Positions 38,425 to 63,740 of a DNA stretch of 64,000 nt are shown one piece after another. The notes below the pieces were generated by a model, which saw only the letters and a list, made by a program, of their open reading frames with translations, searched no databases and was not told the DNA's origin. Where the stretch lies: assembly GCF_963678975.1 (NCBI RefSeq), contig NC_089273.1, positions 28,277,073-28,341,072 of the forward strand, read 5' to 3'. The DNA is from Dysidea avara (Eukaryota; Porifera; Demospongiae; Dictyoceratida; Dysideidae). The first letter of the stretch is position 1; each line of letters begins with the position of its first letter. A program made the position numbers and the translations under genes.

Positions 38425-41400
38425 TTACACAGCAGGTTTAGGAGTAACCTGTGGTTTTTTTCTTCTGTTATAAACTGGTTTTGTACTTTTACTAGTAGCA
38501 CCTTTACTAGTAGCACCGTGTGCATTTCCATAGGCAGTAAATGGGGAGACCAACTCTAAATAGTACCCATCGTCACTATCATCATCCACATTCTGATATA
38601 CAGAGTTACCACAATCACTGTTTACATAATAAGTGTTGTTGTCATTTGGTGCTGCCGGTGTAGAGGACTCTGGTAAAAAAAAGTATAAATATTTTAAAGT
38701 CAAATTACTACATCTGAGGTATTAACTTACGATGATTAGATGTGAGTGATGTTTCATTCATAATGCCATGTTGTGGTCTTTCTGCTGGCTTTGGCACATT
38801 AACATATTCATGGCGTGTACTGGGAATTGAACCTAGTTCATTGTTTTCAAGGGAATGAGATTTTATAATGGAGTTCGTGTAATGAGGTTGTTTAACTTGT
38901 TTTCCGGGGTTCATTCTAATATAAGCATCTGATTCATCATTTTGATTTGAGATTCCACCATGTGATATTGACCTAGTAAAAGGAGGTGTTAGAGGTTTTA
39001 GGCTTGTTAATTCTTCATATTCATCATCAGGATCGTGGACAATAATAGTAGCTTGAGATGCATGTTTGGGTTTATCATTGTATGACAAAGACTTTTTGAT
39101 TGCACATTTCTGTCTACTGGTGACCATTCGCTGATTTTTTATAGGACTCAAATTTGCCAATAATCTTTCATCTAAGAAAGGGTAATCATAGTCCCATGTA
39201 TCAGTCTCTTCATAATTGTCAACTTCTTCTTGGCTTGATTGCTTTGGAATTGGTTGAGATGGAAGCAGTCGCGGTGGTGTGATTGATACATTGGGGAGAG
39301 AGCTCTGAACTGGTGATGATGGCAACACATAACAGTCCTCATCAGAGTCACTCTGTTCCTTGTTGCTGGGAGGGCTGGTGGCTGTGGTGTCCTCATCAGA
39401 GTCAATGTAACTGTAGTAAACACTGTCCGTAGCTGGTGAGTCTTCACTGTTATTGCTTGAAGCTTCATCTTTAGCATTCTTGTTCTCTAATACCTACAGA
39501 ATAGATGGTATATATAATTAACTTCAACATGCTGTCTCATTAGCAGGGTTTCATTTGATTGAGGGGGGCACTTGCCCCTCCTCCTCACAAATTCTTCTCC
39601 CCCCCCTTAAATTTTAATAAAAGTGCCTCAGAATGAATCAGAAGCAATCTACGAGAGTCTAAAATGCAAAACATTTCCTGGAGTGTCAGATACCTCAGAA
39701 TGCACCAAAAACAATCTGAGAGTTTAAAATCCAAAAAGTTCTGGAGTTGAATGTCACGGTACCTGAGAATGAACCAGAAGCAATCTACGAGAGTATAAAA
39801 TGTAAAAATTTCTGGAGCAGCATGTCACCTTCTCAGATGTACTAGAAGCAATCTAAGAGAGTCTAAAATACAAAAAATTCCTGCTCCTAGCTGCCATGCA
39901 CATAAATGTAGGTGTGCACACAAATGTTGCCCCCCCCCCATACTTTGACAAAACTGTATTTAGCCCCCCCCCCTCGAGTCATTTCTAAATGAAGGCCTGA
40001 CTAGACTAGAACTCTGCAGATTTTTGGAGTTATAAATGCTATATGAACTGTAGATAACATACTGGTCTATTTATTTCTTTTAGTAAATCCTTTTTTTGTA
40101 TTATGGACCAAGCTGGTATACCTTCTCCTAGACAATAACCATGTGTAAGGGTTTTAAAATAGAAAAGTGCGTTGAAATACTGCCTTAAATAATACGATTT
40201 ATTATAAGTAGCTATTCAATTATAAAAATATAACAGTGGACAACAAGAGAAGATCCATGCACATAGGTATCTTTCAAAAAGTTACAATAACACAATTATT
40301 TTTCTTGCATAGATCTCTGTGGCTTGGAGGTACAAACCTTTTTAATTGCTTGTAGCCATTCCATTTTCTGCAGTGGGGTGTCAGCCTTCATTTCAAACCC
40401 TCTACCAGACTCACCACACATGACAACAAACCGATTCAACTTATTTTTCTCATCAGGAGTACTCAATGCATCAGATGATTTGTTCAACACAATCATACCC
40501 TAACAATATACAAAGGTCCAGTACATTTACTGACAGACATAATAATACATGTATAAATTTAATTTGGAATGGAATATATACAAAATTAATATAAAGAATA
40601 ATTTATTGGTAAATCACAAATATTGTGAGGTCACTAAAGCTTTCTCAATTGCAGCATGTGATATGCAAAAGTACTTATTGTAAACATTTCAAAACAGTCA
40701 TTTAATGTACCTTCATCACAAGATTTTCATTGCTTTCATAGTAAATCAAGGCACCTTCCTTTAGAATAAACCACCTCTTCTTCCAATTCTTCCTTCGACC
40801 ACCCTTCTTTACCAAACTGCCTTTCTTAAAAATTCCATTCATTTTTTCATCATATAATTCCATAATTAGACGTGCAATTTTGTTGTCTGACAGATGTGAG
40901 TTGCCAAGACAATTAATAATTTCCGCTAAATATTTAATAAAATCAAATGTTGCCACAGGAGAATTTTTCACAAATAAGTGTTCAGAGTCTTGAAGTGGTG
41001 ACAACAGCCTCTCCAACAATTGATTCATCTTTATACCTATAAGAAACATGTGGAGTTTTAAGCATAGTAAAACTTGCTTAACACATCCTAATTCAAAGTT
41101 AAACTGCCTTTATTTTATAACAGGATTGATAAAACACACAAGGAGTTTGGATTGGAGAATTCTTGTTGTACCCGATGACAGTACTATTAGAGTACTTTAC
41201 TCTTCTTTTATACAGAGCATCTAGAGGCAGATCCAGGGTTTAGAAAGTGGGGGTGCACTAGGGTAGTAGGTTTATGGACCAGCATTGAAACCGGGTCACT
41301 ACTGCTGACCCGGATGACCCACTGACCCGGATTAATTAAAGCCGAGGTGTGCGATAAGAGCTATGTTTCGGCTAGTCTCGAGCGAGTGAACAAGACTACG

Positions 41401-44400
41401 TTTTGAGCGTTCGATTCGTGTTGAGTAAATATTGCAACTTCAGCCTAGCTGTAGGTTGAAGACCAAAAAAAAAATAAAAGGTCATCACCTACTGACAATA
41501 GCTACCCCTCACCATAAAGGCGTGGCTGAGCGTACGTTGGTAACGTGATAAGTGGGCGTGGCTCACGAAAGAGCTACGCAATAGTGTTTATAAGTTCCAT
41601 GTCGTCAAACGAAAAATTTCATTTCTCACATGATACAATCTGTGTCAGACCCAGATGACTCGGAGAAAATGTGACCCGGATGACCCGGAGAAAATGTGAC
41701 CCAGATGACCCGACCCGGTTTCAACGATGATATGGACATGGGGTCAGGGGGTGCAGCCCCCCAAGCTAAGGCTATGCCATATGTATCAGGACTGAAAATT
41801 AAATGTATAGAGTGGTTTATGCAGACAAATATCTTAATCACACTGTTTTCTAAGTGAACTAAGAGTTAAATAGGGGTAAGTAACAGCAGGAGCTTATAAG
41901 TGCAGAAGGTGCAAAGAAGCGTGAAACTTCCATGAGGTTGTGTGGTAACAGTGACTGAAATTCAAAATTTCCTTATATGAAACCTTGCCAACCACACAAG
42001 CCACCCTGCACGCCTGCTTAGTGGGTTTCTGTTGTTATTACACTTGTTAAACAAATTCACTAGTAGCTGTGCAGCGCGAGATGAGCAGTAACAGTAAGAG
42101 AAAAAATCCCGAAAATTGCTTATGTAATGAAACCACCCTGTAGATTTGTGGTATTCCAAATAAGGTAATGTTGCACTGTAGAAGTTTTGCATGGTTAAAC
42201 CCATTAGTTTCACGCTCCTATTTATAACTTCCTGTTGACAGTCACTAATAGTTCAGTTAGCTTTAACCCAAAGAATGGCATACAGAGGACCATGTGCATT
42301 TCATTTGCAAATATTCTTAGCAGTACAAGTGTGCCAATGCATGGAATAGTGTTGTAGATGCTAGTCATACTATGGAGGATTCTGGTTAGTGTTATGTGAT
42401 GACTGTTCTATTAGAGTATTTGGCTGACTTCTCTATTAAAGTACATCAATCTTGTTTTATTTTATTTTGAAGGGAGGGAGAAGGGGGCTGTCCCCCCCCC
42501 CCCCCCCCCCCCTGGATCCGCCACTGGCACCATTATGTTACTTTAAGTTTTTACTTGCTAAGTTTTAGATTTGAAGTGTAAGCGGACGTTCCAAATGAAG
42601 TATAGTTGATCTGCTGCTGCACACGTATAATTATACTAACACAGTGCCAGAGCCCAGAGGTGATGAGTGGTCAGGCCACCTGTGGACTATACAATAGAGT
42701 CATGAACACTTTTATTGATCTGATGTGCGTACAGCAAAGCTAAGCCGTCCATGAGCATGCTCCCCCAGGGATGTTTTTCAAAAATAGCTGCTCTGAAGTG
42801 GATTCTGGGGGCTATTTTACATAAAAAGTCTCTTTCTCCTTTTTATTAACATCAAGGATATTTCCTGGTAATTTTGTGCTTTCACATCTAGTAGCTATTA
42901 GCATGATACAATTAATTCTGAAAGTGATAGGATTAATTCTTTAAGATTTGGAAGCAATTTGATGTTGCAAGACATGCATGATCAAATAGCACAATACAAT
43001 GCCGCCATGTATATAGTTCACTGGAAGTACAAGACAGTTAACTGGCTTAGGACAAGCAGTGTAAATTAGAACAGTGTATATATTCCATTGAACACTTTAC
43101 TAGTATCATCATAACCGTTCTATTAGAGTTTTTTTTGGGATGAGCACTCTATTAGTGTCAATCTTTATTCAAAATCCAAGTACGTAGCTAAAAAGTGGTC
43201 CAGCCTTGATTTGGCCCTGTAACACACTGTATACAAGATTTCACTTAGAGTTTGTACATCAATTCCAGTAAGTGCAAAAGTTGATTGCTGCAGTAATACA
43301 AGATTTTTAGTGGTGCGGCAGTACATATTATGCATGGATGTTCTATTAGAGTAGTTGCATGTAAATATCTACATGTGCAACAGTTTTTCATACAAACGTG
43401 TCTCATAACATTTCATTGAACGATAAAATGTCAAAGAGTTTGGCAGGAGAAATTTTGATGCATTTAAGTGTATTTTTCAGTATGCAGTAAATATAATATT
43501 ATACATACACGTAACACACACCAACACACGTATGCCTTTACCAGTAATGATCATGGCATTATCCGCACCAAGGTAGTGATTAAAAATTATAAACAACTGA
43601 TACATCATTGTCTTGTTCAGCCAGTTGCATTGTGGCAGTGAGTCCTTCTTCTCAGTCACGTAGTACCTGTAAGTGTGATAGTTAATATATTGTGGGAAAT
43701 CATCATGTGTGTGTTGTGGTTATAGTGTGTAAATTCTGTATGCGATGTACCTACAATTATCTACACACATACGTACATGTGACGTGCACATGTGTATGGA
43801 TGGATACATAGGGAAAGCAAATGTCAACTGTCCATATCTCATAATTATAGTGGGTAAGATGAATATTATAGGGCTCGCACTCTCCATGAGAAATGGGTAA
43901 ACCTCTTGCAAGGAATACGTATTGTATATCCTGCTAGAGGCTGTACACAAAGTCTTACATTCACTTCACCATCCTTATTGGGATGGGGGGCTGGACTAAT
44001 ATAAATAATGCCATATGCTAGTTCTGTTCCCATCAGGATTTGTATGCACCAACTTATAACACTTTGAATCATACAGGTGTACCGTGTTTCACTAAGTATT
44101 TACATAGGTGTGGCCATGTATACAGCAGCTGAGGGTACGGATTCAATATCACAGGCTTAGACACAATCAGCATTCACTGAATATGTACGCAAACTATTAT
44201 GCAGACTGTGACTGTAGACAAAACCTTAATTCCCACCCAAACACACAAGTACCAGCTGAACCCTGTAAAGTACTATACATACAACAAAACAAGCACTGGA
44301 ATACCACAAAAGGAATTAACACAGATCAGGATGCTCTCACTGGTGAAACAGGGAAAATAGATTTAATTATAAACTGTATGTATGACTTCTACTATCAGCA

Positions 44401-47400
44401 GCATTTCTAGTGGATGTGTCACATGCCTACAAGACAAGCGACGACCTACATGTCCTGCAACTCAACATGAGAGTCTCTATCATTTGCTTTTATGATAATG
44501 GTATCACAAACTATATATGTACATAAAATAGGCTTGAAACAATAAACAGACTTGTATATAATTGTTGATCAAAGGAAGTGAGGTTTAGGCAATGATGTTC
44601 CAGGAAATTGGCATGTTGTGGTGTTTGCATTGAAACCTGTGTAGTACAGACACTTGGGAACAACCAAACAAGTACCAATAGCCCATTTTCACACAAGGGT
44701 TAAGGAATGTGGTGGTTATTAATTGCGATTGTGTAACATCCGGTGTCCTTTAAAATGTATTGAAGCGTATGGGAGTGAGGTAAGAAATCTTCACGGGAGC
44801 CTAAACTGTACCGTTTATTCTTATTATGAGAACGAAATTGTAATTTTCAGGTTGTTAGCATCACGATGGTATATAGTTTGTGAAGATTCACTGTGTTGTA
44901 AAGCGGAAAGAAGTGACTTTAGCATGGCAGAAGACTATAGTGACTTTGTTTTCAGCATCTAGAAAGTCTACTTAGTGAGATAAACGTTGTTACTACGTTT
45001 CTACAAGGCTGGGAACAACGCTATACAAAATTTTATCGCTGAAATAGGCGATCTTTCATCGCTGTGATTCTATCAATACTAGGTGATTATTTCACCCGTT
45101 ACAGTAGGTCTAGTGGCCATGTTTTGTTGCCTAACGATCCTCTATACTTATAAAAGTAAAAATACCTCACTTTAGGAAAGATGCAGCCTTTAAAACTTAA
45201 GATATCACTACCATTTGACACAAGATTGCTGATTTCTCAAATACAACACAGCGTATCTTTCCAATTTTCACGTCATCACTGTAGTATAGTGGCTGCTATA
45301 AAAGTACATTCTTATAATAAGAATAAACGGTATGGTTTGGGCTCCTGTGAAGTTTAAAGGTCTTAGTCCCATAGGTTTCAATACATTTTAAGGCCTCCCA
45401 AAGGACACTGGATGTTGTGCAACGTGTAATAAGTTAGTATTCATTACCATACCGTGAATACTTCAGCTTGCGTGGAAATGGACTATTATCCAATGTGTTC
45501 TGATTTTCCAGGTCAGTTTATGTACTAAATGACTGGTATATACTTTCAAGACATTAGTTGGAGTGTCTGGATTACAAAGGTACTTTCATTAACAAGTTTT
45601 ACTGCGATTGCTATGTACATGTTTGAAAAAGTTGGAAACTTAATATAAATATGTACGCACAAGATTTCTTAAAAGCTCACTGCATGTTTTAGCAATTTAA
45701 GGACACATTATCAAGCCGTAGATCATCACAAATTCATTCCACAATATTTAAAACTACTTACACGTATGTACGTACTACAAAAGTATGTACAGACACACAA
45801 TGTAAGCACTCAATACGTACATATATGTATAATTGCACTACACAAACACACAACTATACACACTGTTACATCGTACGTACGTACCTCCAGCACACCATTT
45901 GAACACCATTCAAATCAAGCTTGTTGGATTTCTCATCTGCTGCTTCCTTAAGACTCATCTCAATCACTCTGGCAAACTCAATAGTTGACAATGCCTTGTC
46001 CACAAACCTCTTCAGTGACCGTGGAGGAATGATTGGGACAGGCTGTAACTGGGTGAACCCTGTCCTGGAGGACTTGGTGGATGATGGTCGTTTTACTTGC
46101 GCCTCAAGAGTTTTGATGAAATTCTCAAGTAAACTGGAGTTCCCCTACATAAGAACAAACATGTGTGTAATGTATATATCACTCCCAGGAAGAACACATA
46201 CATGGAATAAAAACTGCTGATAACATTAATATGGTACATAATTAGGAAAACAAACCATACAAAAGACGAGTCACCTGCTGACTCAGTGATGGTGTGTTGC
46301 AAGTGTGTACACAATTAACAGACAGAACAGTACATTTGTGTTGTTAGGATATTTGAGTTGTAGAGAGGGATCTAAGCTGGTAGCGTCCTATTACTGTTAA
46401 GGTGGTTGATTATGACTATCATAATGTTGCTAAACTATAACTAGCATGCATTCTGAAAACAAAAACAAAAACTTCTCTGCAAACTCAACTATGACAGATC
46501 AAAATCTTGACATGCCACTTATTACTTTATTACAAATGAGTTTGTATGTAAATTCAGTCACATAATGCTGTGATACAGAAAGCACTAAATCTATAAGGTG
46601 TGAACCTATCTCAATTAATGAATTCATCATGAATGGAATGTTGATGTAAACTTGATAATGACTGATCTGAGCCAGTCAACAATAAACAAGCTTGTCTACT
46701 TCAACAAGCACAGTTTAACAGATATCTCGACATGTTGTCTGTATGGCAATACGTTGTACACATTCCCAGACCATTTCATATAAAAAGTACAAGTGAAAAC
46801 AAATCACCAATGAAAATAAAGTACAGTGAAAATAAAGTACCAGAACATGATACGTATGCATAATTATGTCAAGGCTGATTGCAGTATTCAGAACTTAGCC
46901 ATTAGATTTTCTTTGCAACACTGAACAATTTCTGGGTTAGGTATAACAAAATTGTCATGGATTTCTTGCAACAGAGACCATTTTTGGAAGTAAAGAAATG
47001 ACCACAAATTTGTAATAGTACAGTCAAAACAAAATCCTGGCATGGAGGGAAGCCAATGGTTTGTTTACTGTAGTATATACAAAACATGCAAAGCTACTAT
47101 ATATTATAAGTGTTATCCAGATACAGATGGTATACAAACACTTGTAGTAATGAACAAAAGTTGATGGTTTCTAACACAACCAATGTGTAATAATGATATT
47201 CATAAGTGGTACAACAAAACCTTCTAACGTCTTTATTTATAAGCCAAAACATCTGCTCAGTCATAATACATCTCTTCAAAGGTCTATAGAAATTATATTC
47301 ACATTACTTATACACATGCATATACGCTACATAGTCCATCCCATTGATCTTAGCTTCCTTACTGACACACTATCAGTACACACAGAGCTCACTTTGTACT

Positions 47401-49248
47401 GTGCTTCCTTGATCACAGTTAGAGCATGGAGGATACAATGACGAGGGATGACTCCAAGGATGAAATCAGCACTCTGTCTTCTGGCCAGCCCATCAGTACT
47501 GTCTGATGCTAAAACAACAAATGTTAACATAATAGACCATAAAAAAACTATAAACACTGTAAATCAAATCAAACCAAAGCATCTGCCATATACACAGTCT
47601 GCACGGGCCACCTGTGCAACTACACAGGCACTAAATAAGAGTTGGTGGTAGTTCATCCCTTCTGGGGTAGGACTAGTACCTTGCAGAAGGCTGTACCGTC
47701 TCTAAGGTGTGGGCATCCAAAGTCCCACCCAAACTTCACCCATTCTGGAAGACATGTGATGGTTGGCATTTGTCTTTCCAGTTCCCATTGATGACAAACT
47801 GGGTACACTGTCTATACACTTAACAAACATTTATCTATAATAGGAATATGCTACATACATCAATATTTTTACCTGTTGGTCTATAATTTGGAATTTGGCT
47901 CCATGATTCAATCCCAACAGTAGTGAACACTCTATTCCATGTCGCCTGGCTGTCATTGTGGAGCCATTTTTCAAACATTTCGTTACAACAGATCTCATGT
48001 AGGCCGGGAAACATTTCTTCAATCACATTAAGATCACCGAAAGCCACACCCAACTCTGTGCCAATCTTCTTCCATTTTGTAGCATGTTCAGGTGTGATGT
48101 AGCGACATAGTTCCTCTAATAGTGGCCGGTTGTCTCCTACAATAAATACATAATTATGTGTATAGCATACAGGTGTGTACGTACAAACAGAGCAAAACAA
48201 AGCCTATGGTAGCTGTGTAAAACACAGCCTTTGCTGCCCAGGGAACAGCACTGGGATGCCTGTGCACCACTCAGGTTTTTGAACCTTGTGCAGGCAAATC
48301 TTCCTAGTGACCCGCAGGAGGACTGTCTATGTCTCACGGAGACAGGCCGTGGAATCTGCAGTTCCACAGTGATTCCAACACCACTGAGCGAGACAAGGAC
48401 AGTTGGGAATTTGCTTCCCCAGAAAACACTGGTCAGGTACCCATTGCACCCTGTACAGGCTTTTGCCTTTTGTGTAACCCCTGTCTGTTAGACAAAATAA
48501 TAATAAATAAATTGATGTTACAGCATGGTGGGCTGCTTCCCCAGATGACACCAGGCCACCAGGTCCCCAACGGTATAACATGAGTCAAGTTTCTGGCTTA
48601 AGGAAACAACAACATGAAATTGGCATAACCAGGTATCAAACCTGGAACCTTTCAATACCAGGCCGATGCTCTAGCCACTTGGCTATGCCGCCTCACATAC
48701 ATACATTCATACATAAACTTGTACACACACACACACACTTATTACAGGAAGTACACATGTACATTCTCACACATATCACATCATAACTTTCAATATACCA
48801 ACAGAACAGGCGGACGTCAGACATGTAACACACATTTCACACCCTAACATGGGTGGGACAACAGGAAACATTTCCTACTTGCAGTATGAGAATGTTTAAA
48901 AACAATAATTATACACATCACATTGGTGACTAGTGTTAAAAATCCCCTATATATGACATATGCAGAATGAGTGGGCTAACATTAAACCACAGCAAATTCC
49001 AAACACAAGGTCGACATAAATACGTGTATATGTCATGTGTACTAACATATAGCTAGAACAGAAATAGTAGCAAGTCGCTGGAAACAAAATTGTCCTTGTA
49101 ACTGTGCACTAACATATTATGTGTAATGTAACACATACAAAGTAGTGATTAAATGATTATAAAAACATATCTTACCACTGGCTTGGCGTAACTGTCGCTG
49201 GTAGGTGAAGGAAAGTAAATCAACATGTACTGGCTCTGAAGCAGTCAT
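38425..49248 (-). CDS. Death - SWAP70/DEF6-like - PH - tyrosine-docking adaptor, paralog 1 (about 777 aa, 9 coding exons)
   Basis: Spliced model, minus strand: 49248-49176, 48136-47873, 47508-47393, 46144-45885, 43666-43542, 41036-40711, 40499-40338, 39493-38731, 38669-38425. All junctions are GT/AG and phases agree throughout. Residues about 27-108 form a Death domain (WKKIGTELGVAFGDLNVIEE, ATWNRVF). About 113-345 resemble the SWAP70/DEF6 N-region (CW, YQLFIIFN, LLERL). About 347-440 are a PH domain with the basic phosphoinositide loop KKGGRRKNWKKRWFILK and a closing MEWLQAI helix. The tail is disordered and carries YVLP497, YEEL, YIRM633 (p85-type YxxM), YVNV672, YVNS711 and YQNV721 (Grb2-type YxN). 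The SWAP70 coiled coil is absent. Inferred role: membrane-recruited adaptor linking Death-fold complexes to tyrosine kinases. The first exon is open upstream to an acceptor at 49260, so the real start may lie further 5'. Confidence 0.82.
39625..39885. repeat. Degenerate tandem repeat (about 70-bp unit, four copies)
   Basis: Four imperfect units each contain AGCAATCTA-GAGAGT-TAAAAT-like blocks (near 39639, 39704, 39776, 39842). They lie in an intron of paralog 1, between C-rich segments (39597-39606, 39931-39940, 39965-39973). The whole 39540-40000 segment may be one transposon remnant. Confidence 0.65.
40338..41036 (-). other. PH-domain exons of paralog 1
   Basis: Exons 41036-40711 and 40499-40338 join in phase 0 at NLVMK|GMIVLNKSS, in the middle of the PH domain. 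The same split occurs in paralog 2 (LTQK|GGMVLNRA). The K-K-G-x-R-R-K-N-W-x-x-R-W-F motif is nearly the SWAP70 PH motif KKGHRRKNWTERWF. Confidence 0.85.
41285..41724. mobile_element. Inverted-repeat element, TTGAAACCGGGTC ends
   Basis: TTGAAACCGGGTC at the left and GACCCGGTTTCAA at the right are perfect 13-bp TIRs, each followed inward by repeated TGACCCGGATGACCC-like units (tandem copies at 41663-41712). Located in an intron of paralog 1. No ORF. Confidence 0.7.
42492..42512. repeat. Poly-C tract (21 C)
   Basis: Homopolymer at the right end of the composite element. Length probably uncertain. Confidence 0.9.
44677..45487. mobile_element. DNA element with about 190-bp terminal inverted repeats
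   Basis: The outermost bases AATAGCCCATTTTCACACAAG and, inverted, AATAGTCCATTTCCACGCAAG begin arms that keep matching through ACATCCGGTGTCCTT, AAAATGTATTGAA, CTTCACGGGAGCC and ACCGTTTATTCTTATTAT. Short gaps separate the blocks. The spacer (about 44840-45300) has no transposase. It lies in the large intron between exons 4 and 5 of paralog 1. TSD not resolved. Confidence 0.75.
47873..48136 (-). other. Death-domain exon of paralog 1
   Basis: Exon 2 (264 nt, phase 1 in and out) encodes one whole Death fold. It starts DNRPLLEELCRYITPEHATK and ends with ESWSQIPNYRPTG. The helix-2/3 WKKIGxxLG and helix-5/6 MFEKWL...ATWNRVF patterns match sponge and echinoderm Death domains. A symmetric-phase domain-sized exon is what exon shuffling would produce. 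Confidence 0.75.
48185..48696 (-). mobile_element. tRNA-derived SINE, copy 1 (antisense to +)
   Basis: The minus strand begins with a tRNA-like head: A box TAGCCAAGTGGCTAGAGCA (48685-48667) and B box GGTTTGATACC (48642-48632). A body follows that matches 62492-62911 in order: GTTGTTGTTTCCTT, GGGGACCTGGTGGCCTGGTG, GAAGCAGCCCACC, CTGTAACATCAAT, AACTGTCCTTGTCTC, GCACAGGCATCCCAGTGCTG. It sits in the intron between the first exon and the Death exon of paralog 1, and is interrupted by a 64-bp insertion at 48447-48510. Confidence 0.85.
48447..48510 (+). mobile_element. 5'-truncated LINE 3' end inserted in the SINE
   Basis: The 64-bp segment starts CACCCTGTACAGGCTTTTGC, continues CTTTTGTGTAA and ends in AATAATAATAAATAAA. 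It is flanked by ATTG on both sides (48443-48446, 48511-48514) and absent from SINE copy 2. The first part matches the 3' UTR of the LINE at 5.6 kb (TACAGGCTTTGCCTTTTGTG), and both end in an AAT-type tail. Confidence 0.75.
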
Positions 49249-49673: not shown

Positions 49674-49702
49674 GACACACACACGCGCACGCACGCACGC
49701 AC
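49674..49702. repeat. CA/CGCA microsatellite
   Basis: Alternating purine-pyrimidine run (ACACACACACGCGCACGCACGCACGCAC) just upstream of the paralog 1 first exon. Potential Z-DNA-forming sequence. Confidence 0.85.
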
Positions 49703-51799: not shown

Positions 51800-51802
51800 T
51801 AA

Positions 51803-53586
51803 ACGGTTTTAAAAATCAAGTCAGCATAACTTGGCAAGAATGGCAAGCTCGCGTATGAACTTTACACAAAAGATACATCAATCTATTACCTTTGTAATTG
51901 TTTGTAGAGTTTCCTACAAAATAAGATAGAAAATCTGAGCAGTTGGACAAGCGAAGTAGCATCGCAAGTGCTCACAAAGGGGTGGACAAGAGACTTCAAA
52001 ATGAATAATTAAAGTCCAGACACAAGATTACAGGGCTGTGCTGGCTTGATATGTAACAAAATTAATAAACAAACAAAAAAACGTTTGGCCAACATTATGA
52101 GGCCATCTACCAGCAAACCACTGATTCTTACCCTTCACAATGCCAGAAACCACCACTCGAGCTCTACATACCACCCAGAAGACGTCTGTTAAAACCAGCC
52201 TCGAGTACGTAGTTTGCATAGTACTGAGTGTCACAACTACTAGTACAATAGTGTAGCTATCCACTGGTGGTGTTAGTTTGATTTTGCCTGATGTGCGATT
52301 TGGATCAGCTTTGTAAAATCATAGTGAACAAATGGTGCATTTGTAGTAACACATTGTTTGGTGACTTGTACCATAGAGTCCAGGGATAGCCTAAGTTGTA
52401 GATTGCTTCATTACTCTGAAACCAGTTTTAAAACTGGAGTGTACACAAAGGCTCAATTACTTAACCAGCTAGTTCTCTCAGTGGATAACGTAGGCTACAT
52501 GAGTAGTTACTGAGCTATTTATCAGCACCTTGCAAATAGACACAGTAGTAGCATTTAATGTGCACGCAGATAATAGCTCAGCGAGCTAGTCTATCCGAGT
52601 AAATTAAAAATTAATAGCTAGCTGGGAGTGGATAAGTTTTGAAATTGGATACTTTAAATACCGTTCAATCTCTACTTCAGCGACACAGCAATACACCATG
52701 TACTAGCGCGACTACTGTTGATTGTTTTAAGTGTACTGATATACCACGAAACGCTACATAGGGAAGGCAGTTTCAGAGTTTAGAGAGGGTGTGACAACAA
52801 GGTTGTTACACTAAACGAACATTATTAACTTTACGACACAAATCAACTTACTAGTTTACAACCTGCTACAACTCACAGGATGATCGCGAATGAGAGATCA
52901 GAAATCATGCCAGCATAAAACAGCAAAATCAAGTTATCGGTAGAGAAGCCATATAGATACATGTGATTCAAAGAAATTCTTTTTGTAAAACCGGAAATTG
53001 TATGCTCTAGCAAAACAGGAAGCCACTCCCAAGAGCGAACACGTGATGTGACTAAAATGCATTACAAGGGATGACACAGCTCTGATTTTGTTAGTAAAAC
53101 ACACACCATTTGTTGGGTGTAGCTAATGACAACACCTGTATGGCGGAGAGCTACATCTTATCAGGTCACTGACTCACATCCTGGTGTTGTCCATGACCCA
53201 CCGGTCCTCTCACCAAAATGGTTCATAATTATGATGTCAGTTTACTCAGTTACTGTGGAAGCTAAGTGGGTAGAGGAAGGTGCATACATGTACACTACAC
53301 AATTTAATGCTAGAGTACTCAAGGAAGAAAGAACGTATAGTAGTGGTAGTAGTAGTCATAATTCAGTTATACTAAAGATTATTTTGACACACAAATGTTA
53401 CACTTACACAACACAAAATACAAAACACAAGACCTTAAAAGCTCACAATAATTATATTGTAATATAAAAATGTTTAAACCAGCAAGTAGCGTAAAAATTT
53501 GTAGATTTGTGATAGTTACGGACTACCATTGTGCTCAGCATGGAAACTACAGGAAAAGAAACAGCAAGGAATAAACAAAGCATATC
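51803..53586. other. Intergenic between the two Death-PH paralogs
   Basis: No recognisable gene. Short frames (52028-52264 -, 53126-53467 +) lack domain features. Confidence 0.35.
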
Positions 53587-53598
53587 CACATTCAGCAC

Positions 53599-53665
<67 letters not shown>

Positions 53666-53790
53666 ACACACAAACACACCACACACACAAACGCAAACAC
53701 ACGCACACACACACCACACACACAAACACACACCACACACACGCAAACACACACAACACACACACACACACACACACACCACACACAAAT
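53587..53790. repeat. Long CA microsatellite in 3' UTR of paralog 2
   Basis: About 200 bp of (CA)n with A and G interruptions, beginning about 11 bp past the stop codon of paralog 2 on the minus strand, where it reads (TG)n. All long frames through it are repeat artefacts. Confidence 0.95.
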
Positions 53791-53800
53791 ATTGTACCAT

Positions 53801-56800
53801 TTATTGTGCAAAATTTGAGTGTGCAGTGTAGCTAGATGACAAATTCCTTTCGTTGCTAAACTGCCTGGAACGTCTCTGCTGCGGTGACGATGACGACTTG
53901 TATTTATGTGAGGTCCTCGGAGAGTCATCAGCTACCACTGTCAGATAACCCTTAGCATCATACTCATTACGAGGTGGGATGGGAGGACCTGAATTTTGAT
54001 TGGTATGGGTATAGTCAACTGGCTCGTAAGTTTCAACTGTGGAAACAAGAGACAATACATAATCACATTCATAGAAAAAATTATTATAGGGTGTGATAGT
54101 GTTGCTTTGGTTCTAAGGTACTAGTACTTTTAGTTCAGTAATATATTTCTAGTTCTAGAACTAAAGTTTGGAGGTGGTTTGGTTCTACAACTAAAACTAA
54201 ACCAAAACCAACAGAATTTTTGGTTAAATTTCTTGAATTTTAGTTCTATTATAGTGCTAAATTAAAAGGTTTCAAACAAAAGGAAACCTGACAGTGCATT
54301 CTAAAAGGCAAACACCACTGCCAATTATCACAATTTATTGAAGTTGCTTATGACTGCAAGTGAAGTCATAAAAATGTTTATTTTATTCATTTGTAAGCTG
54401 TCAACAATATGAAATAAAACTCCTCAGGGGTACTAAAACTACTAATATTAACTGAAACTCCTGTACACTGAGGATACTAGAACTAAAACCGTTTTAAAAT
54501 TGAATACTAAAAAACTAAACCAAAATGATTTTGCAGTACTAAAGCAACACCAGTTAGCAGGCCTCCAGTTTTGCATCCATGGCAGCTTTGTTGATAGTTA
54601 CCATGTAATATCGAAACACAAGCTACTGCCTGTAATACTCATTGCCTACAACTGTACGCTCTAAAAATGTATTTACAAATAACAAAGAAGACCAAATATT
54701 GTACTGTGTTTGCATGGTTGCATACAAAACTATCCCTTGGTTTCTAGGTGATAGCATGTTCTTATAAGAATGAACCCATAGCAATGTCCACAAACAAACA
54801 ATTGGAAATACCCTTTTAATAAGAATTAGTGACACATTATGGTAAGTTCTGTCCCAAAATACCCAGATTAAAAGTGGAATTATAATCTCCTAAAGTGTTT
54901 TCAGCCTTCCTAATACTAGGGACACCTGTAAACATCCGAGATCAAACCTGGACACTAAAACTCTATTGAATGACGAAATGGTGACTGGGGTGATTCCCAG
55001 CAACATCACACATGCACTCTAGATATACACATGCTAGAGCAGATGGGATATTCTCTGCATTCAAGCTAAACTTAAGTTCATCGACTTCTCACCAGGCAAA
55101 GGATTATTGGAATTGCTATTCCATTATGGATTGTTGAGCAGGGAAGAGGAAGGGAGGACACACGCCCATGCGTATTAATCAAATTCAAAAACGCTTCTAA
55201 ACGTATTTTACAAAACTTCTTGTACGTGTTCACGGGGATGATATATCAGGCATAAATGACACAATAAATGACACACTGATATCTACAAAGAGTTATTAAA
55301 GGATTACTGTAATTCTTTGTGGGAAGTCTGTCACCCCAATCTATCACTACTACTGCAAGTCTATGTAGTTTTCTTCTTAACGGAACAGTTTTTACTCACA
55401 AAATTCACATCATTGTAAAGCACAGACGATTGCTCAATCCCCAGTGATCCCTGCCATCAGGATTCCTTTGGTTCACATGAAAACATGTTTTTTGACATAG
55501 TGATTCTGTTACTAGTACACACGTGTGTGTCCTGCAGCTTAACATTATGGAATGAAGGTATTCTACCAGGGTTGCTGTATTTGACAGATCAAGGATCAAA
55601 GGATTGACAGATCAACAGATCATGTGATAAACATGGTCCACTACTCATTGGAGATATTTATAAGTACTAATTGTGTCAGTATATGATTAAATATACTTGA
55701 TATAATAATTATTTTATAAAACACTGCACACATCACTTCATCGCTTAAATGCTCACACAATGTTCCTGGATTTAGCTAGCTACGTGATCACTGTAACAAT
55801 TGAAGGTAAAGCCGCCGACATCACATTATTACATTTGTAGATTAGGTCTACTACCTTCGATCAAGTAAAGCTTAAGCCAACCAGTATTTTTTTTCTTTTA
55901 TCATTTAGACAAGAAGGTGAACCTAATTAGAGCCAGCCTATGCCACAGCTGTGATTCTACGATCATTTTATAGTTTACCTTCTTTTCTCATTGGAGGAGA
56001 GTGTGCCCTGGCCATCAGACCACTGAATCGACCTGCTTTCCTGTTCAGAACCTTCGCTTCAATAAAGAAGATTGTCAATAGCTATGAGCCAAATCAGCTC
56101 GCCAAGTTAACTTACTCAGAAGTCGATAAAATCCATAGTCTCCTCACACCTGCCTATCAATGTACAAGATAGTGGACTACATAGACAATTAGACATACTA
56201 TATATGTATGACCATAAACGGCCGTAGCTAAATCTGTAAATCTGTAATGGTTCGTGGGCATTTTAGTGATGAAGGGAAGTGTGCAGTGTTGTCATCATTA
56301 GTAAAATAATTATTATACCAAGTATACTACAACACTAACACAATACTTATAAACATCTTCAATGAGCAGTGGAATATGTTCATCACGTGATCCATCGATC
56401 TGTAATCCACCAAATACAGCAACCCATTCTACCATACGTATTATGACCTGCTTTGCATTACTTGTAGTTTGCCTTCATGTGTAGCATGGTCACACATGAA
56501 ATTGTAATTAGTACATAACTTACTTGAGTCATCCGCTGGAACATTTTGATAACCATGAAGATTATCTGGACCGAGGTAGTATTCGTCACCTGCAACAACA
56601 TTGTAATTTATTAATGCATACTTCGACTGTATGTCATTATGTACAACTATTAGCTGAGTAGAAATTAGGGGAGGGGATTGAAAATTGTTTGCACATATGG
56701 GGATATGTGTGTTATCCTCTAACTAACATTCCACAACATACGTCTACTATACTTTCTCTTGACTGTGTCTAGTAATTTATGTGATAAAAATTACTATTAA

Positions 56801-59800
56801 AAGACTATCTTGTACCACTTACTTGACTCGTCATCTGGAAGGCTTTGATGGCGTTGAGGACTATGCTGCTCTATGTAATAGTCATTGCCTACAACAGAAC
56901 ATACAATGTATACGACGTACGATAATATTATACTACATGTGTGTGTCAGCATTCGCTATACAAGTGCAGTCAGGAGGGAGTTATGTGGTAAAATTATAAG
57001 GGGAACGACAAGACTAAATTATGGTGACCACAGTCAATGATTAACTACACAATAAGCAATAAACTGTAGATCGGATCTGAAACAATTACGTTATTGTTTG
57101 TACAAACAGCTGCAAGATCAACTTTTCAAGTATATCAGCCAAAAAAATAAGTAGCCTAGCAGAGGGATGAGCATATTTTTCCCCGCCTAACTTTCTTTCC
57201 AGCAACTCCTTTTCACTGACTAATTTTACTCAAAAAAATCCATCTGTATTGCTGAGAATTAATAAATATTTATAGTAGTCTCTCACAACTCACACTGTCC
57301 TATTACAATAATCATTTCACAACATAGTGACTTTTCTATTAGAGTATATTCATGTAAAACACACCAGGTTGATGTACATGCCTAAGCATTCAAATATACA
57401 TAACAAATACTCTAATACAACACACAAGGCAAAACAAACACTCAAAATGATGAACGTACTGTAATGGAAATACCATAACACTGCATTGTTGCTGGTTCTG
57501 TGTGTTGTACCACTTGCCAAGTAAGCAGTATACCTTAAATGTCATGCAGAAGATAGATGTAGCAGTTTACAAAAAATAAGTTAGTTGGATGATGAAAGCT
57601 TTACTGTAATTCGAACAAGAATCATGTTGTGTCGAAGACAACTGAGTAACCATAGTCCTGGCTATACAGATGGCCATACACACAATTACTTAATGCAGAT
57701 AAGTTAGGGTGTCTCACATACAACAACAACATCATTATTAGGGGTGTGCATGTACACTGTATATTACGTACTTTCTGGCTCCTCTTTGATCACATTACCA
57801 CATTGATGATCCTGGGATGAAGTCACTACAGGATAATCATCTTCTAGTTTGATCCCATTACGAGCATAATGATACTGCAGGGTAGCAGGTGTTGATTCTG
57901 TTAACATGGCAATGTCTGATCTTCTCTTGTCTAGTGGCCCGGTAGCACTGCGTAGTCCATTCTGCGTATGTCCCAGTTTACTGTTGTAATCTTGACCAGG
58001 TATAAAACTGCTGTGTCTTGTCATTAGATGTTTGTCAATTTTGGAGCTATGTGCCATTGATCCCAAGCCACTGTCTACTGATATTGTGTGTGGAGAGCTT
58101 CGTAAATTGAGCCTTGGAGATTTGTCACTGACGTCGTCTTCAGAATCAGACCCAGAGTCCATGTTAAGTGACGTAAAATCAGACACCGTACTGGTTGTTA
58201 TGCTTCGCTCCGCTGAGCCAGCACTCAGGGTTTTGCTCAACTTTTGTTTCTGTGATTTGGTGAGGTCGTCATTATCAATGCCATACTTGAGACGATAGTA
58301 AGCGGCCAACTCGCAAGCATCATCTTCACCATCTAAATCATTCCTCTTCAGCTTGCCCATAGAAATAGCCTGTGATAAATAGTACTAATAAATTTGCATT
58401 GAAAATGACCATACTAAGTGCAGCAAAATGCATGCATAATTTAGTGGGCACCATTTTAATAAGACCACCTTATTATACAGTAGTAACCATATCAAGCAGG
58501 CCCCAAATATAGCTAAAATGTACTTCATGACCTCATTGACCACTTTACACCCCAGAAATAGCCATGTTAGTGGGGCTCCAGTTAAATACGTACATGGTAC
58601 CAACAACATTACTTGAATTGACATAGTACAGTACATATTCAAAAAAAACTTAATACTATACTAAATTAATTTCTACATCACAGAGTACACTATGTAACAG
58701 TAGACATGTGTAGCATAAAACTGAAGCACCTCAGATAGATTTATTTAGGCAAACTATATAGTGTCCCGATAGTTTAAAAGCTCTAATAGAGCACACACTA
58801 AGCAGAGTGCCATATGTATGCAGTTACGCACAACTTTATGACAGGTTACTTTACTACTATGTACATACTAGGGATCTGCAATACATATCGATACGGCAAA
58901 TAAGTATCACAATACGATACTGTACTTAGGAAATATTGATGTATCACAGTTTCTACTAGAACAGGTAGTGATTGCTCTATTACTGCAACAGTGATCTAAA
59001 TACTCGAACAGAAAACCAACCTGTGCTATGAAATGCAACATTACGAGAAGCCATACAAATCCGCATTTATAAGTGCTGCTGTTACTGTGTTATGGCTAAA
59101 ACATTGTTACCCAGATCTTCTAAAAACAGTAGCTTCTACACTTTAAGTATAAGGAACTAGCAGTAAACATCTGCTGTATATACTAGCCATATTGACACCT
59201 CACCAAAATGCGGAGAAATCCGGACAAGCCTTTGTGGGAGCATGTATTAAAATAAAATGTTTGTGGTAGCTAATTGTCTGGGTGATGTAATAGAGGCAGG
59301 TATCCAGGTAGAGATGTACTTTTAACAACAACTCTGTTTCCATACTAAAAATCATACCAGGAACAGACTAGCTATTTGTCACATCATGATCAGTATAATT
59401 ATTATTGTAATTTAGCAGCATTCACTGAATAAAGAGTGAATGTAGAATCAGAGTTGGTTCTTTTAAGGTACAGATAAATTGGATATTGTTACAACTATTA
59501 GCTAATATGCCAGTCATTACTAGCCATGACCACTTTATTATTATAGTATCGTGATACAGTATCGTATCGAACAGTTTATTGATGTTGATACATGATACAC
59601 AAAATGCACTGTATTGCAGAACACTAGTACATACATACGTATATCATACTGTACTAACAACATACGCACCTCTTTTATAGCATGCATCCATTCTGACTTG
59701 CTCCTCTGGTCAGAAGCCTTGATCTCAAAAGCTCGTCCCTTAATGCCACAGGTGACGACAAACCGGTACAACTTGCCCTTCTCGTCAGGTAGGCTGATCA

Positions 59801-62140
59801 CGTCAGTAGCCCTGTTGAGTACCATACCTCCCTGCAGGGTGGATGAGATAGTGTGGATGGTGTGTATGCATTGTGTACTTTATTGAGAACACGACACAGA
59901 TGTACATGCATGTTATAGACATACAATAACTCATTTATAAAAGCCTCTTTGTTTAGAGGACCCCTCCCTCCATAGGCATAGGACAAAACCAGATAATTTG
60001 TTTGAGGAAGCAAAGGTTTCCGTTCCAGCACTAAAAGCAAGATGTAAGCACTAACTGTTGTTGGAACCCTCACCCTACCTGGTCTCTACCAAACAGTCCG
60101 CGACAGGGTGCTGCCAATTGATATACCACCATGTGGTGTGTTATCAAGCCTACCCCAGGATGATTAATAGAATATAGACACACCACACATAACACACACA
60201 CGTACAAACAACAACAAACACACATAATACACAACAAACATTTCACACCTTTTGGGTTAGATCTTCTCTTGATGTGTAATAAAACAAAGTGTCTTCTTTA
60301 AGAATAAACCATCTCTTGTTCCAATTTTTCCTCTTTCCTCCCTTCTTGATCAAGTACCCTTTTTTAAACACACCCTTTACCACCTCATCCAGCAAATCAA
60401 GTATCATTTCACAAGTCAAAGACATTTCTAATTTGAGGTAGTCAAACGTGTTGGTGATTTCCTCGAGGAACTCAGGGAATGCTATCCCTGATGCTCTGTG
60501 TTCGCTCTTCACCACCTTGACAATTGCCTGACTCAGGAATCCACAGGAAAGTACAATCTTCTCTAACAGGTAGTTCATCTTTGGTTCTGTGTATATGTAC
60601 ATGTACACATGTACTAAATACAGTAAATTATGCTTAATATTATAAAATTCATCACCAGGTGAGTGAACGTGTTTCTGTGCATGGTGGAACTCCTCAAAAT
60701 GGGACACTTTGAAACATGGACCCTGATAATTACGACACTTGTTCCTGGACTAATGTGTGCAAGTGCAGATACAGCATCCTAATATGGCCACAAAGAACAG
60801 ACAGAGGTTCACCACCGCCTGTAAGAACTAATACAGTACGCTGACACAGCAAATCATGACTTGATTTGGCAACAATCACAATCAAATACGTACTTTGAGA
60901 AATTACACTCACACACACAAGCACAATATGTAGGAAGCATTTGTACATAAAGATGATACACATCAGACATGCAATTATGGTTAGGTTAGTGACTGAAGTG
61001 AGTTTGACCTATTAGACAGCTTTCACTGTAACACACAGACAACACATAGCCACATGTCTTCACTCAATCATTCACATCTGAATAGTGCTATCATTTGAAG
61101 GCAACTCATTTCAAAATGCATGAGGTGTCAGCCAACAGGAATGACACACTATAATAATTGTTGTGATAGTGTATCCTGTTTGTACATAACTGTGGTCACC
61201 TGATGTGTGGTCTTTGTTTTACATTTTCAATAGACCTTGTGCACAATGGCATAATGAACACAAATATGGTCATGATATTTTTGGGGACTAGTACTGATAC
61301 AGTGTACTTATGGAGAAATTGTTTTGATCAATTATATTTCAGTCATGAAGCTAGATATTGACCAGTAGTGGGTATAGAGTGACAAAAGCCACTCCATACA
61401 AATGTTACTTAAATTATCCTGGAGCATGCAATACAATTCGTTTATTGTATCACCTTGTAACCTTACCTGTTCCATAGGGCTCGATATCTCGTTCCGTGGC
61501 AGAAATGATAATTTTTTTTCTCCAAAGGTGCCTGTATGTTAGTCTTATGCAGGTGAATTGTCACCTAAGATATATGGCCTCAAACATCTGGAGTAAAAGA
61601 AGTGGCCTTTACAATTTTAGTATTGCTACAATAATTATCATGAGTGCTTACATACAGTAGTCAGGATCACATGGTGGGCACCAGATAGAGTTAAAAATGG
61701 ACTAGGGTTGTGATAGCAAGCTCCACAGTCTATCTGTTAGCTAACTCTGCACTGCAATAGCTTATGTACACTGTACATGCATAATACAATACATACATAT
61801 CTATGTCAACAACTGTTGCTCTGGTGTCAAGACTTAGTGTGTATAGTCAAATAGTGTAACCATCTTGTCGTGATGTTTGAAAGTTTGTTTATGAGCCAAA
61901 ACTGTTGGTTTCCCAAAATACGTTGCATTTGCAGTCAGACAACACATTTATTTTTTAATGCTTTTTCCTGCATTAAAGGTCTGTGGACGTCATGTTCCCA
62001 CAGCCAGAGAAACATACATACATACAACTACAATATTACTTACTTACTCACATGCGTGCACAAACACACACACACGCACACACACATACATGCATGCACA
62101 CACACACACAACATGCATACACACACGCACGCACGCACGC

Positions 62141-62171
<31 letters not shown>

Positions 62172-63740
62172 CACGCACGCACGCACCCACCCACACTACT
62201 ACTACACACATGCACATACGATACTTACCACTAATCTGCACGACTAGTTCGTCCCCTAGTAGCTGGTTGAAGATGACAAACAGTCGATAAGTACAAGTAT
62301 CACTCAGCCACTTAGGATGAGCCAAAGCCTTCTTCTTCTCTGATGAGTAGTGTCTGCAGGTGGGGACAAAATGATACTATACATACTCCATATGCGAGTA
62401 CCCATGACTAAACAACCTTCATTAATAGACAACGTAGCAGGCATACGTTTATGCATGTTTTTCTGCACATGAAAGTGTGTGCGTGTGCATTGTGAGGCAG
62501 CATATATAGCCAAGTGGCTAGAAAAAGGCTCCAGGTTCGATGCCCAGTTGTTGTTGTTGTTGTTTCCTTGAACAAGAAACTTTTTTCACATTGCTACAGT
62601 CTACGCAGCTGTATATTGGGGACCTGGTGGCCTGGTGTCATCTGGAGAAGCAGCCCACCCAGCTGTAACATCAATGGGTACCTGGTGTGAACTGGGGAAG
62701 CAAAAGTCAACTGTCCTTGTCTCATATAGCAGTGTTGAGGTTGTTGTGGAACTTTTGGTTCTGCGACCTTTCTCTGGACAGTAAGGTTACTAGCCCTGCC
62801 CTAGGAGCTGCACAAGGTTCAAGCACCTGACTGTGCACAGGCATCCCAGTGCTGGTTCACTGGGCAGCAGTACCTGTGTTTAACATGGCTGGCAAGAGCT
62901 TTTGTTGAGTGTGTGCGTGTGCGCGCGCGCGTGTGTGTGAGGTAAATATGACAGATATAAGTGAGGACACCATCCACTCACTTCCAACATATCATTTGTA
63001 GTTTCTCCATTTCCACTTTCTTACTAGTCTGCTCCATAGCATCCTTAATCCTCCTCTCCATCATGATGGTGAACTCTTCTGCTGCGATGGCGTTCTCATA
63101 AAACTGGTTAACCTCAAGGGGAGGGATAAGTGGGATGTGTTCTGGTGAACGAAATGATCCAGTCTCTGCATTTTTCTTTTTTGGGAACCAGACTAGTTCA
63201 GTGACGTCCTTTATAAGTTCATCAAGTGCTGAAGAGCTTCCCTACACAGTGAATGGAAGTAATAAACAAAACATGATCACCTCATTATAATGACCATATA
63301 AAGTATGGTAACACTCAAATGCAACATCATCCTGTTAGAGTGCAAGCAATTAAAAAAGCTGATTAAAAAGGGTGTGGCACCTGTTTAGCTCACGAGTATT
63401 CATCCTGCTTCGATGAATACTTGCAAACGAAAAGGGTTCTACGCTCTTCACTTAGCAAGTTTTTTTTAAGTTACCTGCACTCTTGCGAGATGAAGTTGCA
63501 TTTGAGTGGTACCATAGGTCCCTAAATATACTAGTGTAAGCCATGGTCTCAGCAATAAAGACTTTACGGCCCTTCACTGTACTAGCTACAGTGATGTTCT
63601 CACGTATGTACACACAAATGGAAGAACACAAAATCACTAGAACAAGTACTACACAGTACTCACCGTAGATATCGCTGCTTCTATCACAGTTAGAACATGT
63701 AGTATACAATGTCTTGGGATATTACCCAGTATAACATCCA
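53801..63740 (-). CDS. SWAP70/DEF6-like - PH - tyrosine-docking adaptor, paralog 2 (5'-partial, at least 641 aa)
   Basis: Spliced model, minus strand: 63740-63664, 63241-62982, 62353-62229, 60586-60249, 59831-59670, 58369-57772, 56888-56823, 56589-56524, 54036-53801. All junctions are GT/AG with consistent phases. It aligns with paralog 1 from IPRHCILHVLTVIEAA through YRLFVIFNQLLGDE and MNYLLEKIV to the PH domain (KKGGKRKNWNKRWFILK, ending SEWMHAIKE). The tail differs: a 199-aa Ser-rich exon with two SUMO-type sites (IKLEDD, IKEEPE), two related 22-aa exons (DYYIEQ; DEYYLGPDN and YQNVP), and a last exon with YEPVDY, PPIPPR (class II SH3 ligand) and GYLTVV. The first exon seen starts in phase 1, so a Death-domain exon as in paralog 1 is expected past the right edge. 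Confidence 0.8.
54097..54552. mobile_element. hAT-like element filled with ACTAAA repeats, copy 2
   Basis: Ends TAGTGTTGCTTTGGTTCTAA and the inverse TGGTGTTGCTTTAGTACTGC. The interior is rich in AACTAAA/TTTAGTT like 23781-24194. Flanks do not match. It is located in the last intron of paralog 2. Confidence 0.6.
54623..54645 (-). pseudogene. Relic or alternative last copy of the 66-nt tyrosine exon
   Basis: Minus strand: acceptor GTTGTAG (54652-54646), then GCAATGAGTATTACAGGCAG and TAG stop, reading (S)NEYYRQ*. It matches the start of the exon at 56888 (acceptor GTTGTAG, then GCAATGACTATTAC), in the same phase. Either a decayed third duplicate or an alternative terminal exon that would shorten the tail before PPIPPR. 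Confidence 0.5.
55951..56172 (+). other. Coding-like frame inside a paralog 2 intron
   Basis: An open frame from about 55927 to TAG 56170-56172 has protein-like composition (AIRPLNRPAFLFRTFASIKK, LAKLTYSEVDKIHSLLTP). It follows a very strong acceptor-like polypyrimidine tract (TTTTTTTTCTTTTATCATTTAG, ending 55909). That acceptor is out of frame with it, and no ATG precedes it. Probably a gene or retroelement remnant. Family not recognised. Confidence 0.25.
58869..59626. mobile_element. hAT-like element with exact 8-bp TSD GTACATAC
   Basis: Identical GTACATAC at 58861-58868 and 59627-59634. Ends TAGGGATCTGCAATACA and the inverse TAGTGTTCTGCAATACA. Subterminal ATATCGATACG/GTATCGTATCG motifs. 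It lies in the intron after the second PH exon of paralog 2, ending only about 43 bp from that exon. 758 bp, no transposase frame. Confidence 0.85.
59670..60586 (-). other. PH-domain exons of paralog 2
   Basis: Exons 60586-60249 and 59831-59670 (162 nt, the same length as in paralog 1) encode the helical lead-in and PH domain. The phase-0 junction inside the PH domain is conserved between the paralogs. Confidence 0.85.
62052..62218. repeat. CA/GCAC/CCAC microsatellite
   Basis: About 165 bp of CA, GCAC and CCAC repeats ending about 10 bp before a paralog 2 exon boundary (62229), inside the intron next to the splice donor. Confidence 0.95.
62492..62911 (+). mobile_element. tRNA-derived SINE, copy 2
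   Basis: Head with A box TAGCCAAGTGGCTA (62507-62520) and B box GGTTCGATGCC (62534-62544, close to the tRNA consensus GGTTCGANNCC). The A-to-B spacing is shortened by a small deletion. The body matches copy 1 at 48.2-48.7 kb. A (TG)n/(CG)n run at 62912-62940 follows the 3' end. Inserted in the paralog 2 intron between 62982 and 62353. Confidence 0.85.
63304..63516. mobile_element. MITE family with GGTACCACTCAAA ends, copy 2
   Basis: TATGGTAACACTCAAATGCAAC and the inverse TATGGTACCACTCAAATGCAAC form the ends. The centre includes GTGTGGCACCTGTTT, as in copy 1 at 19501-19722. It lies in the first visible intron of paralog 2. Confidence 0.78.

Follow-up and report, generated by a model that had tools for sequence, protein, structure and literature searches.

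The NOD-like receptor (NLR) set of a sponge can be large: for Dysidea avara, 230 NACHT genes and 25 NLRD, receptors of the form Death-NACHT-LRR, are reported (PMC12909245). The GEF activity of DEF6 is placed in the DH-like C-terminus of the protein (PMC5421089). Among the open papers listed by word searches there was no described protein in which a Death domain, a SWAP70-like region, a PH domain and a tyrosine-rich tail follow one another in this order. The window analysed here, a stretch of 64,000 nucleotides of the D. avara genome, contains two neighbouring genes, A and B, both on the minus strand and both predicted from the sequence to encode SWAP70-like membrane adaptors. Gene A in addition appears to combine such an adaptor with an NLR Death exon at its front.

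When nine exons separated by GT-AG introns are joined on the minus strand, gene A has an open frame of 777 residues and a stop codon, with no internal stop. AG and GT border every intron and the entry phases of exons 1 to 9 chain as 0-1-1-0-2-1-0-0-1, in agreement with the gene structure proposed in the preliminary description. Exon 1 (49176..49248) consists of 24 codons, including the ATG, and one further base, and exits in phase 1 at a GTAAGA donor; it is the weakest exon of the model, being placed by its ATG, open frame and donor only, and nothing convincingly related to it was seen upstream of gene B or near NLR Death exons. Exon 2 (47873..48136), whose proposed borders were exact, comprises 87 whole codons between phase 1 boundaries and encodes the predicted Death domain. 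The SWAP70-like region begins in exon 3 (47393..47508; DFILGVIPRHCILHALTVIKEAQYK), continues as a helical region through exons 4 (45885..46144) and 5 (43542..43666), and ends in exon 6 (40711..41036), which also holds the first half of the PH domain (RKNWKKRWFIL); the second half is in exon 7 (40338..40499). Exon 8 (38731..39493) encodes a tyrosine- and serine-rich tail of low hydropathy, and exon 9 (38425..38669) encodes its end (YYVN, YQNV, YYLEL, YGNA) and the stop.

Gene B repeats exons 3 to 7 of gene A, with 146 of 359 aligned positions identical (41%; E 3e-87). Its first exon seen (63664..63740) has the same entry and exit phases as exon 3, and it is followed by the counterparts of exon 4 (62982..63241), exon 5 (62229..62353) and exons 6 and 7 (60249..60586 and 59670..59831), the last two being recognized by Pfam as the two halves of a PH domain. 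The exon model then adds a tail exon (57772..58369), two 66-base exons in phase 1-1 (56823..56888, with DYYIEQ, and 56524..56589, with DEYYLGPDN and YQNV) and a last exon with YEPV, YLTV and the stop (53801..54036). The earlier reading of the pair as tandem Death adaptors is correct for the tandem copy but holds for the Death domain in gene A only: on the strand of gene B, the best match to the Death family in the final 3 kb of the window and 40 kb beyond had an E of 0.66. With no Death exon detectable for gene B, gene A of this genome is the single instance seen of a fusion of Death and SWAP70-like parts. A third exon-4-like relic, containing stops, lies at C2:2218549.

The PH domain was clearly recognized in both proteins by Pfam (E 8.1e-17 in A, residues 349-444, and 1e-19 in B), and the best PDB match of the PH domain of A was 2dn6 (KIAA0640, the SWAP70 PH; E 2.9e-17), its nearest solved relative. 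The region before it is more divergent. The B protein matched a short SWAP70-like protein on C15 across both the pre-PH region and the PH domain (E 8e-23), while A matched it only towards the PH; against a provisional sequence of human SWAP70 without its PH, B gave an E of 5e-6 and A of 0.83. A profile of A and B reached 9% with C15 alone, 85% with SWAP70 alone and 94% with both together, and none of 100 column shuffles attained the score in any of these three comparisons. The pre-PH region, which lies above all shuffled controls, is a weak relative of the SWAP70 type, and the SWAP70/DEF6-like helical region noticed earlier stands in this sense. No canonical EF loop was found by pattern in A, B, C15 or the provisional SWAP70 sequence. 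A search for relatives of exon 6 in bacterial and archaeal contigs gave 33 pattern matches, none of which was confirmed.

The assignment of exon 2 to the Death domains depends on its family and its predicted fold. By itself the exon scored 17.0 bits against Pfam Death PF00531 (E 0.0065), under the curated cut-off of 22.6, and a Pfam scan of the whole 777-residue protein gave no Death match at E<=1; however, 13 of the 14 members of the Death-exon family match Pfam Death at E<=1, the best with 7.4e-8. Since a PDB search with the single sequence returned chance-like matches only (KCTD1, a lipoyl synthase and a helicase, with no Death domain among them), a family profile was needed, and Death-domain proteins made up 19 of the 21 matches listed for it, at E 0.013 and weaker. 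An AlphaFold2 model from a 14-row alignment shows six helices (mean pLDDT 86.8, pTM 0.77). Compared with the PDB by Foldseek, this model had Death domains as the first 24 of the best 50 of its 53 matches (TM 0.55-0.69), with a best E of 0.11 and none at or below 0.001 among the matches listed. Together, the family profile and the predicted six-helix Death fold identify exon 2 as a Death domain, and the N-terminal Death domain of the preliminary description is retained on these grounds, although the exon by itself stays under the Pfam cut-off. The refuting outcome named in that description, a predicted structure in which this exon lacks a Death fold, did not occur.

The preliminary description had missed that this Death exon is, as judged by its relatives, of the type used by the NLR genes of the same genome. 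There are 150 scored matches and 821 candidates for it in the genome. The position of the acceptor (5' splice) and the phase are common to the exon of gene A and 29 of 30 relatives, some of which are near-copies of each other. A NACHT-type frame follows on the same strand, 133-1108 bases downstream, in 23 of 29 relatives, and Pfam found NACHT in all three of the downstream frames scanned. A Death-NACHT-LRR gene also lies upstream of gene B, and Pfam finds NACHT in its frame. Within the window, the surroundings of gene A included, two NLR queries gave no NACHT match and weak LRR-type matches only at 1119-4859, and Pfam recognized neither NACHT nor LRR in the 777-residue protein. As a possible shuffling device, repeats that surround the Death exon and recur in an intron of gene B were considered and set aside: among the loci compared outside the window they matched only 83 bases, at a relic locus (L052/L060), and none of the other Death loci.

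The tail of the A protein comprises its last 334 residues and 19 tyrosines, and that of B 321 residues. YxN motifs occurred five times in the A tail compared to 1.53 in shuffles (P 0.012, uncorrected, with seven motifs tried), and once in the B tail compared to 0.95 (P 0.63). Both tails contain a YQNV with acidic residues and another tyrosine behind it. The long tail of SH2-type motifs claimed earlier is thus tyrosine-rich and modestly enriched in YxN in A, but not enriched in B. Neither tail contains a Pfam domain after the PH, and both are low in hydropathy; this measure is a poor guide to disorder because it labels both PH domains disordered too. The suggestion that a docking tail replaces the coiled-coil/DH-like C-terminus draws its support from these two features.

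Provided that the mRNA joins exons 2 and 3, gene A would encode a Death domain, a SWAP70-like region, a PH domain and a tyrosine-rich tail in one protein. In the explanation to which we give slightly better than even standing, exon shuffling produced a cytosolic docking adaptor: a phase 1-1 Death exon, of the type that opens the Death-NACHT-LRR receptors of this genome, was placed before a SWAP70-like gene, and the output would pass through the PH domain and the tyrosine tail. The insertion point would be a phase-1 intron that is also present in copy B. The sequence itself shows the domains, their order if the splicing is the simplest one, the agreement with NLR Death exons in splice position and phase, and the lack of a NACHT match behind the Death exon of A in the window. 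We infer the splicing of exons 1 to 3, including the joining of exons 2 and 3 in the mRNA, and all of the signalling roles that follow. The Death domain of A may bind the Death domains of activated NLRs or of other Death proteins; the PH domain would, like that of SWAP70/DEF6, take the complex to membrane rich in PIP3; and tail tyrosines (YQNV, YVNV, YVNS and others), judged by their motifs, could be phosphorylated and recruit SH2 proteins. The protein would then be a docking adaptor that works in the manner of GAB/DOK or BCAP and takes its input through a Death domain, and copy B would correspond to this docking module minus the Death input.

Alternatively, the Death exon could belong, as its remnant or its start, to a distinct gene upstream, either Death-only or a truncated NLR, with gene A starting at another first exon and encoding only a SWAP70-like PH docking protein. 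Such exons are very common in this genome, none was detected for copy B, and the frame of exon 3 stays open past its donor until a stop at 47327; through an AATAAA at 47237, a short transcript that stops behind exon 3 would be possible. Against a separate gene, exon 2 is intact and, by its median pN of 0.38 compared to a pS of 0.79 (26 comparisons, 3 gapped ones of 29 having been dropped), under purifying selection; both of its splice sites are in the right phase for exon 3, and the window has no NACHT match in its vicinity. Exon 3 enters in phase 1 and has no ATG inside in either gene, so an upstream coding exon with a phase 1 exit must exist in both. The nearest such exon seen upstream of exon 3 of gene A is the Death exon, and of the 20 pairs of ATG and phase-1 GT that a scan confined to intron 2 turned up as candidate first exons, not one carries a GTRAGT donor. 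We give the separate gene an appreciable but clearly minor probability.

Two further explanations accept the fusion. The protein might be a Rho-GEF/actin regulator like SWAP70/DEF6, with the tail an unstructured linker instead of a phosphotyrosine dock; the SWAP70-type region and PH domain fit this, as does the motif enrichment, modest in A and not seen in B, but no Pfam domain follows the PH, the tails are low in hydropathy, and the GEF activity of DEF6 is assigned to its DH-like C-terminus (PMC5421089). We regard this as rather improbable. Slightly more doubtful still is a Death exon taken from a non-NLR Death gene, with the adaptor acting in a different Death pathway, such as a TNFR/TRAF-like one. 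A NACHT within 1.5 kb is lacking in six of the 29 relatives (L014, L015, L017, L024, L028 and L031); L014 and L015 belong to the four closest, and L014 has none in about 4 kb. The donor may therefore be a non-NLR Death gene; no partner exons of L014 and L015 were found in reading frames. The midpoint-rooted tree, with A on a long branch, does not fix the donor because the exons are too short and long-branched. Three TRAF-type genes lie in the window (17775-19178, 27337-28743 and 33751-35106), but the tails have no more TRAF-binding motifs than shuffles do, and a downstream NACHT does follow most of the relatives.

If the preferred docking adaptor is real, the receptor-type Death exon that precedes its membrane-binding docking part makes it a concrete and testable candidate for a downstream NLR adaptor, through which immune sensing would be coupled to signalling at the membrane and by tyrosine kinases. 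The gene would then also illustrate clearly how an exon can be shuffled from receptors into a signalling gene, and the adjoining copy B, in which no Death exon is seen, would serve as a control. More tentatively, and at well under even chances, gene A could be a dedicated NLR adaptor of an early-branching animal, produced by the movement of an NLR exon onto a SWAP70-like gene, recruited by homotypic Death interaction and leading through its PH domain and tail to PIP3- and tyrosine-kinase-dependent membrane signalling. Vertebrate inflammasomes are not known to use such a route.

Compared to SWAP70 and DEF6 (SLAT, IBP), gene A has the same EF-hand-like helical N-terminal region followed by a PH domain, which among solved chains is closest to 2dn6, but a Death domain stands in front of it, and in both A and B a tyrosine-rich tail occupies the place of the DH-like/coiled-coil C-terminus. 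With the NLRD of D. avara it shares the type of Death exon, the acceptor position and the phase; behind that exon, SWAP70-like exons are found instead of NACHT and LRR. BCAP carries a TIR-type domain but lacks a PH, and GAB and DOK have a PH and no Death domain. By analogy, and with no claim of homology, A would work like BCAP/PIK3AP1, GAB and DOK as a membrane- or receptor-coupled module with a long tyrosine tail. Like FADD, ASC and other Death-fold adaptors it has a Death-fold domain for homotypic assembly, but where these have effector domains, Pfam recognizes no DED, CARD or PYD in A, and the output would instead pass through the PH domain and the tyrosine tail.

Gene A, the minus-strand gene with predicted Death, SWAP70-like and PH parts and a tyrosine-rich tail, spans 38425..49248 in nine exons (49248-49176, 48136-47873, 47508-47393, 46144-45885, 43666-43542, 41036-40711, 40499-40338, 39493-38731 and 38669-38425). 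AG/GT at the intron boundaries and phases consistent through all exons uphold the 777-residue model of the preliminary description. Its tandem copy, gene B, runs on the same strand from 63740 to 53801, with nine exons seen and 641 residues, its N-terminal exon(s) not being among those seen. Between exon 3 and a point shortly after the PH domain, the 2 genes are identical at 146 of 359 aligned positions (E 3e-87), and their splice phases agree at all common exon boundaries. The tails align poorly, yet both contain YQNV followed by acidic residues and a further tyrosine. At 54623-54645 (minus strand), an acceptor-like AG followed by NEYYRQ-stop resembles a dead copy of the 66-base tail exons of gene B. 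The assembly scanned comprises 550.8 Mb in 108 contigs, with the window at C2:28277073-28341072; the Dysidea avara genome is described as 575 Mb on 15 chromosomes (PMC12909245).

The PH domain was recovered by Pfam in both copies (E 8.1e-17 in A and 1e-19 in B), as previously claimed, and the closest solved chain to that of A was 2dn6 (E 2.9e-17), from KIAA0640, which we take to be SWAP70. The region ahead of it had no Pfam match of weight, and is a relative of the corresponding part of a single-exon SWAP70-like protein encoded at C15:5526137-5527381. Gene B matched this protein across both the pre-PH region and the PH domain (E 8e-23), and gene A on the PH side only (E 2e-21). Against a provisional human SWAP70 sequence without its PH domain, the values were E 5e-6 for B and E 0.83 for A. 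An A+B profile without the PH domain gave a probability of 9% with the C15 protein alone, 85% with the provisional SWAP70 sequence alone and 94% with the two together, and 0 of 100 column shuffles reached the score in each of the 3 comparisons, which supports the proposed SWAP70-like region. Exon 3 aligned with the start of SWAP70 in the profile alignment, so the Death domain would be an addition in front rather than a replacement. The C15 gene (L047:973-2217) is intronless and encodes 415 residues, only ~110 of them beyond the PH domain. An exon-4-like relic of the A/B family with in-frame stops lies at C2:2218549 (L052, L060, L061), and near it is an 83-base piece matching a repeat upstream of the gene A Death exon.

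Exon 2 alone scored 17.0 bits against Pfam Death, under the 22.6 cut-off. It belongs to a large family in this genome (at least 150 scored matches out of at least 821 candidates), and 13 of 14 members scanned had a Pfam Death match with E<=1, the strongest at 7.4e-8. With the family profile, chains of RIPK1, FADD, ankyrin and PIDD made up 19 of 21 listed PDB matches, all weak (best E 0.013). The predicted structure has six helices (mean pLDDT 86.8, pTM 0.77), and the first 24 Foldseek rows were Death domains (probabilities 0.75-1.00, best E 0.11). Together, these sequence and model results make the assignment of the exon as a Death domain safe in our judgement.

The Death exon is most simply read as that of a NOD-like receptor (NLR), given its acceptor position, its NACHT-linked relatives and the gene upstream of B. 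The acceptor AG lies at gene A's exact position in 29 of 30 relatives fetched, some of them near-copies of one another, leaving the split codon's two bases. Downstream of the Death exon, at a distance of 133-1108 bases, 23 of 29 relatives (L013-L041) have a NACHT-type frame in the same orientation; none was found within 1.5 kb in the other 6, nor within about 4 kb in one of these (L014). Pfam identified NACHT in 3 of 3 downstream frames scanned and LRR in 1. The first gene identified upstream of B, on the opposite strand (L010:4445 on, plus strand, C2:28355517 on), has a 1986-codon open frame with a Death exon of this family and NACHT and LRR by Pfam; Pfam Death itself was not listed at E<=0.01. 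In a midpoint-rooted tree, which gives A a long branch and misplaces one distant row, A nested among 24 further rows, of which 17 are NACHT-linked (branch support 96/100). Median pN was 0.38 and pS 0.79 over 26 comparisons (3 gapped of 29 dropped), which shows constraint on the predicted exon at a pS near saturation.

Exon 3 of both genes starts in phase 1 without a start codon, so each gene must have a preceding exon that ends in phase 1. In gene A the closest such exon seen is the Death exon, and its phase fits, which argues for joining of exons 2 and 3. Transcripts might instead leave them unjoined: the exon 3 frame can continue until it meets a stop, and an AATAAA lies at 47237; the Death domain, earlier ascribed to both copies, stands for A only, as on the B strand, across the final 3 kb of the window and 40 kb beyond, no Death-exon match went below E 0.66.

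Several other elements were seen. Pieces of an interspersed repeat (70-95% identical) lie at 48216-48570, shortly upstream of the Death exon, and recur in inverted orientation within a gene B intron (62616-62885). Three TRAF-type genes occur on both strands near the pair (17775-19178 and 27337-28743, minus; 33751-35106, plus), each an uninterrupted single frame in which Pfam recognised TRAF zinc fingers and a MATH domain; sub-cut-off RING-like matches occur only in the first. Weak matches to NLR protein parts, including leucine-rich repeats, span 1119-4859 (plus), and a broken stretch at 6344-8752 (minus) with reverse-transcriptase-like and PHD-like frames is presumably non-LTR retrotransposon-like.

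Pfam found no domain in either tail. A charge-hydropathy measure called both disordered, and carries little weight because it called both PH domains disordered too. YxN is enriched in the A tail (P 0.012 among seven motifs tried), which is no more than suggestive for the SH2-type tail proposed earlier. The pattern K-x(7-13)-[KR]-x-R-[WYF] fits the PH domains of A and the C15 protein and says little, being absent from those of B and the provisional SWAP70 sequence. Among the papers listed by word searches of the open literature, none had a title or displayed abstract with the Death, SWAP70-like, PH and tail order; eukaryotic protein databases lay outside their scope, so this does not show novelty. 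The predicted domains of gene A, their order if the simplest splicing holds, the splice phases and the family are shown from sequence. By family, the Death domain would enter Death-Death assembly, the PH domain may bind PIP3 and the tail tyrosines could dock SH2 domains. In the DEF6 literature consulted, the PH domain is described as PIP3-binding, and membrane translocation as needing ITAM-like tyrosine phosphorylation (PMC5421089).
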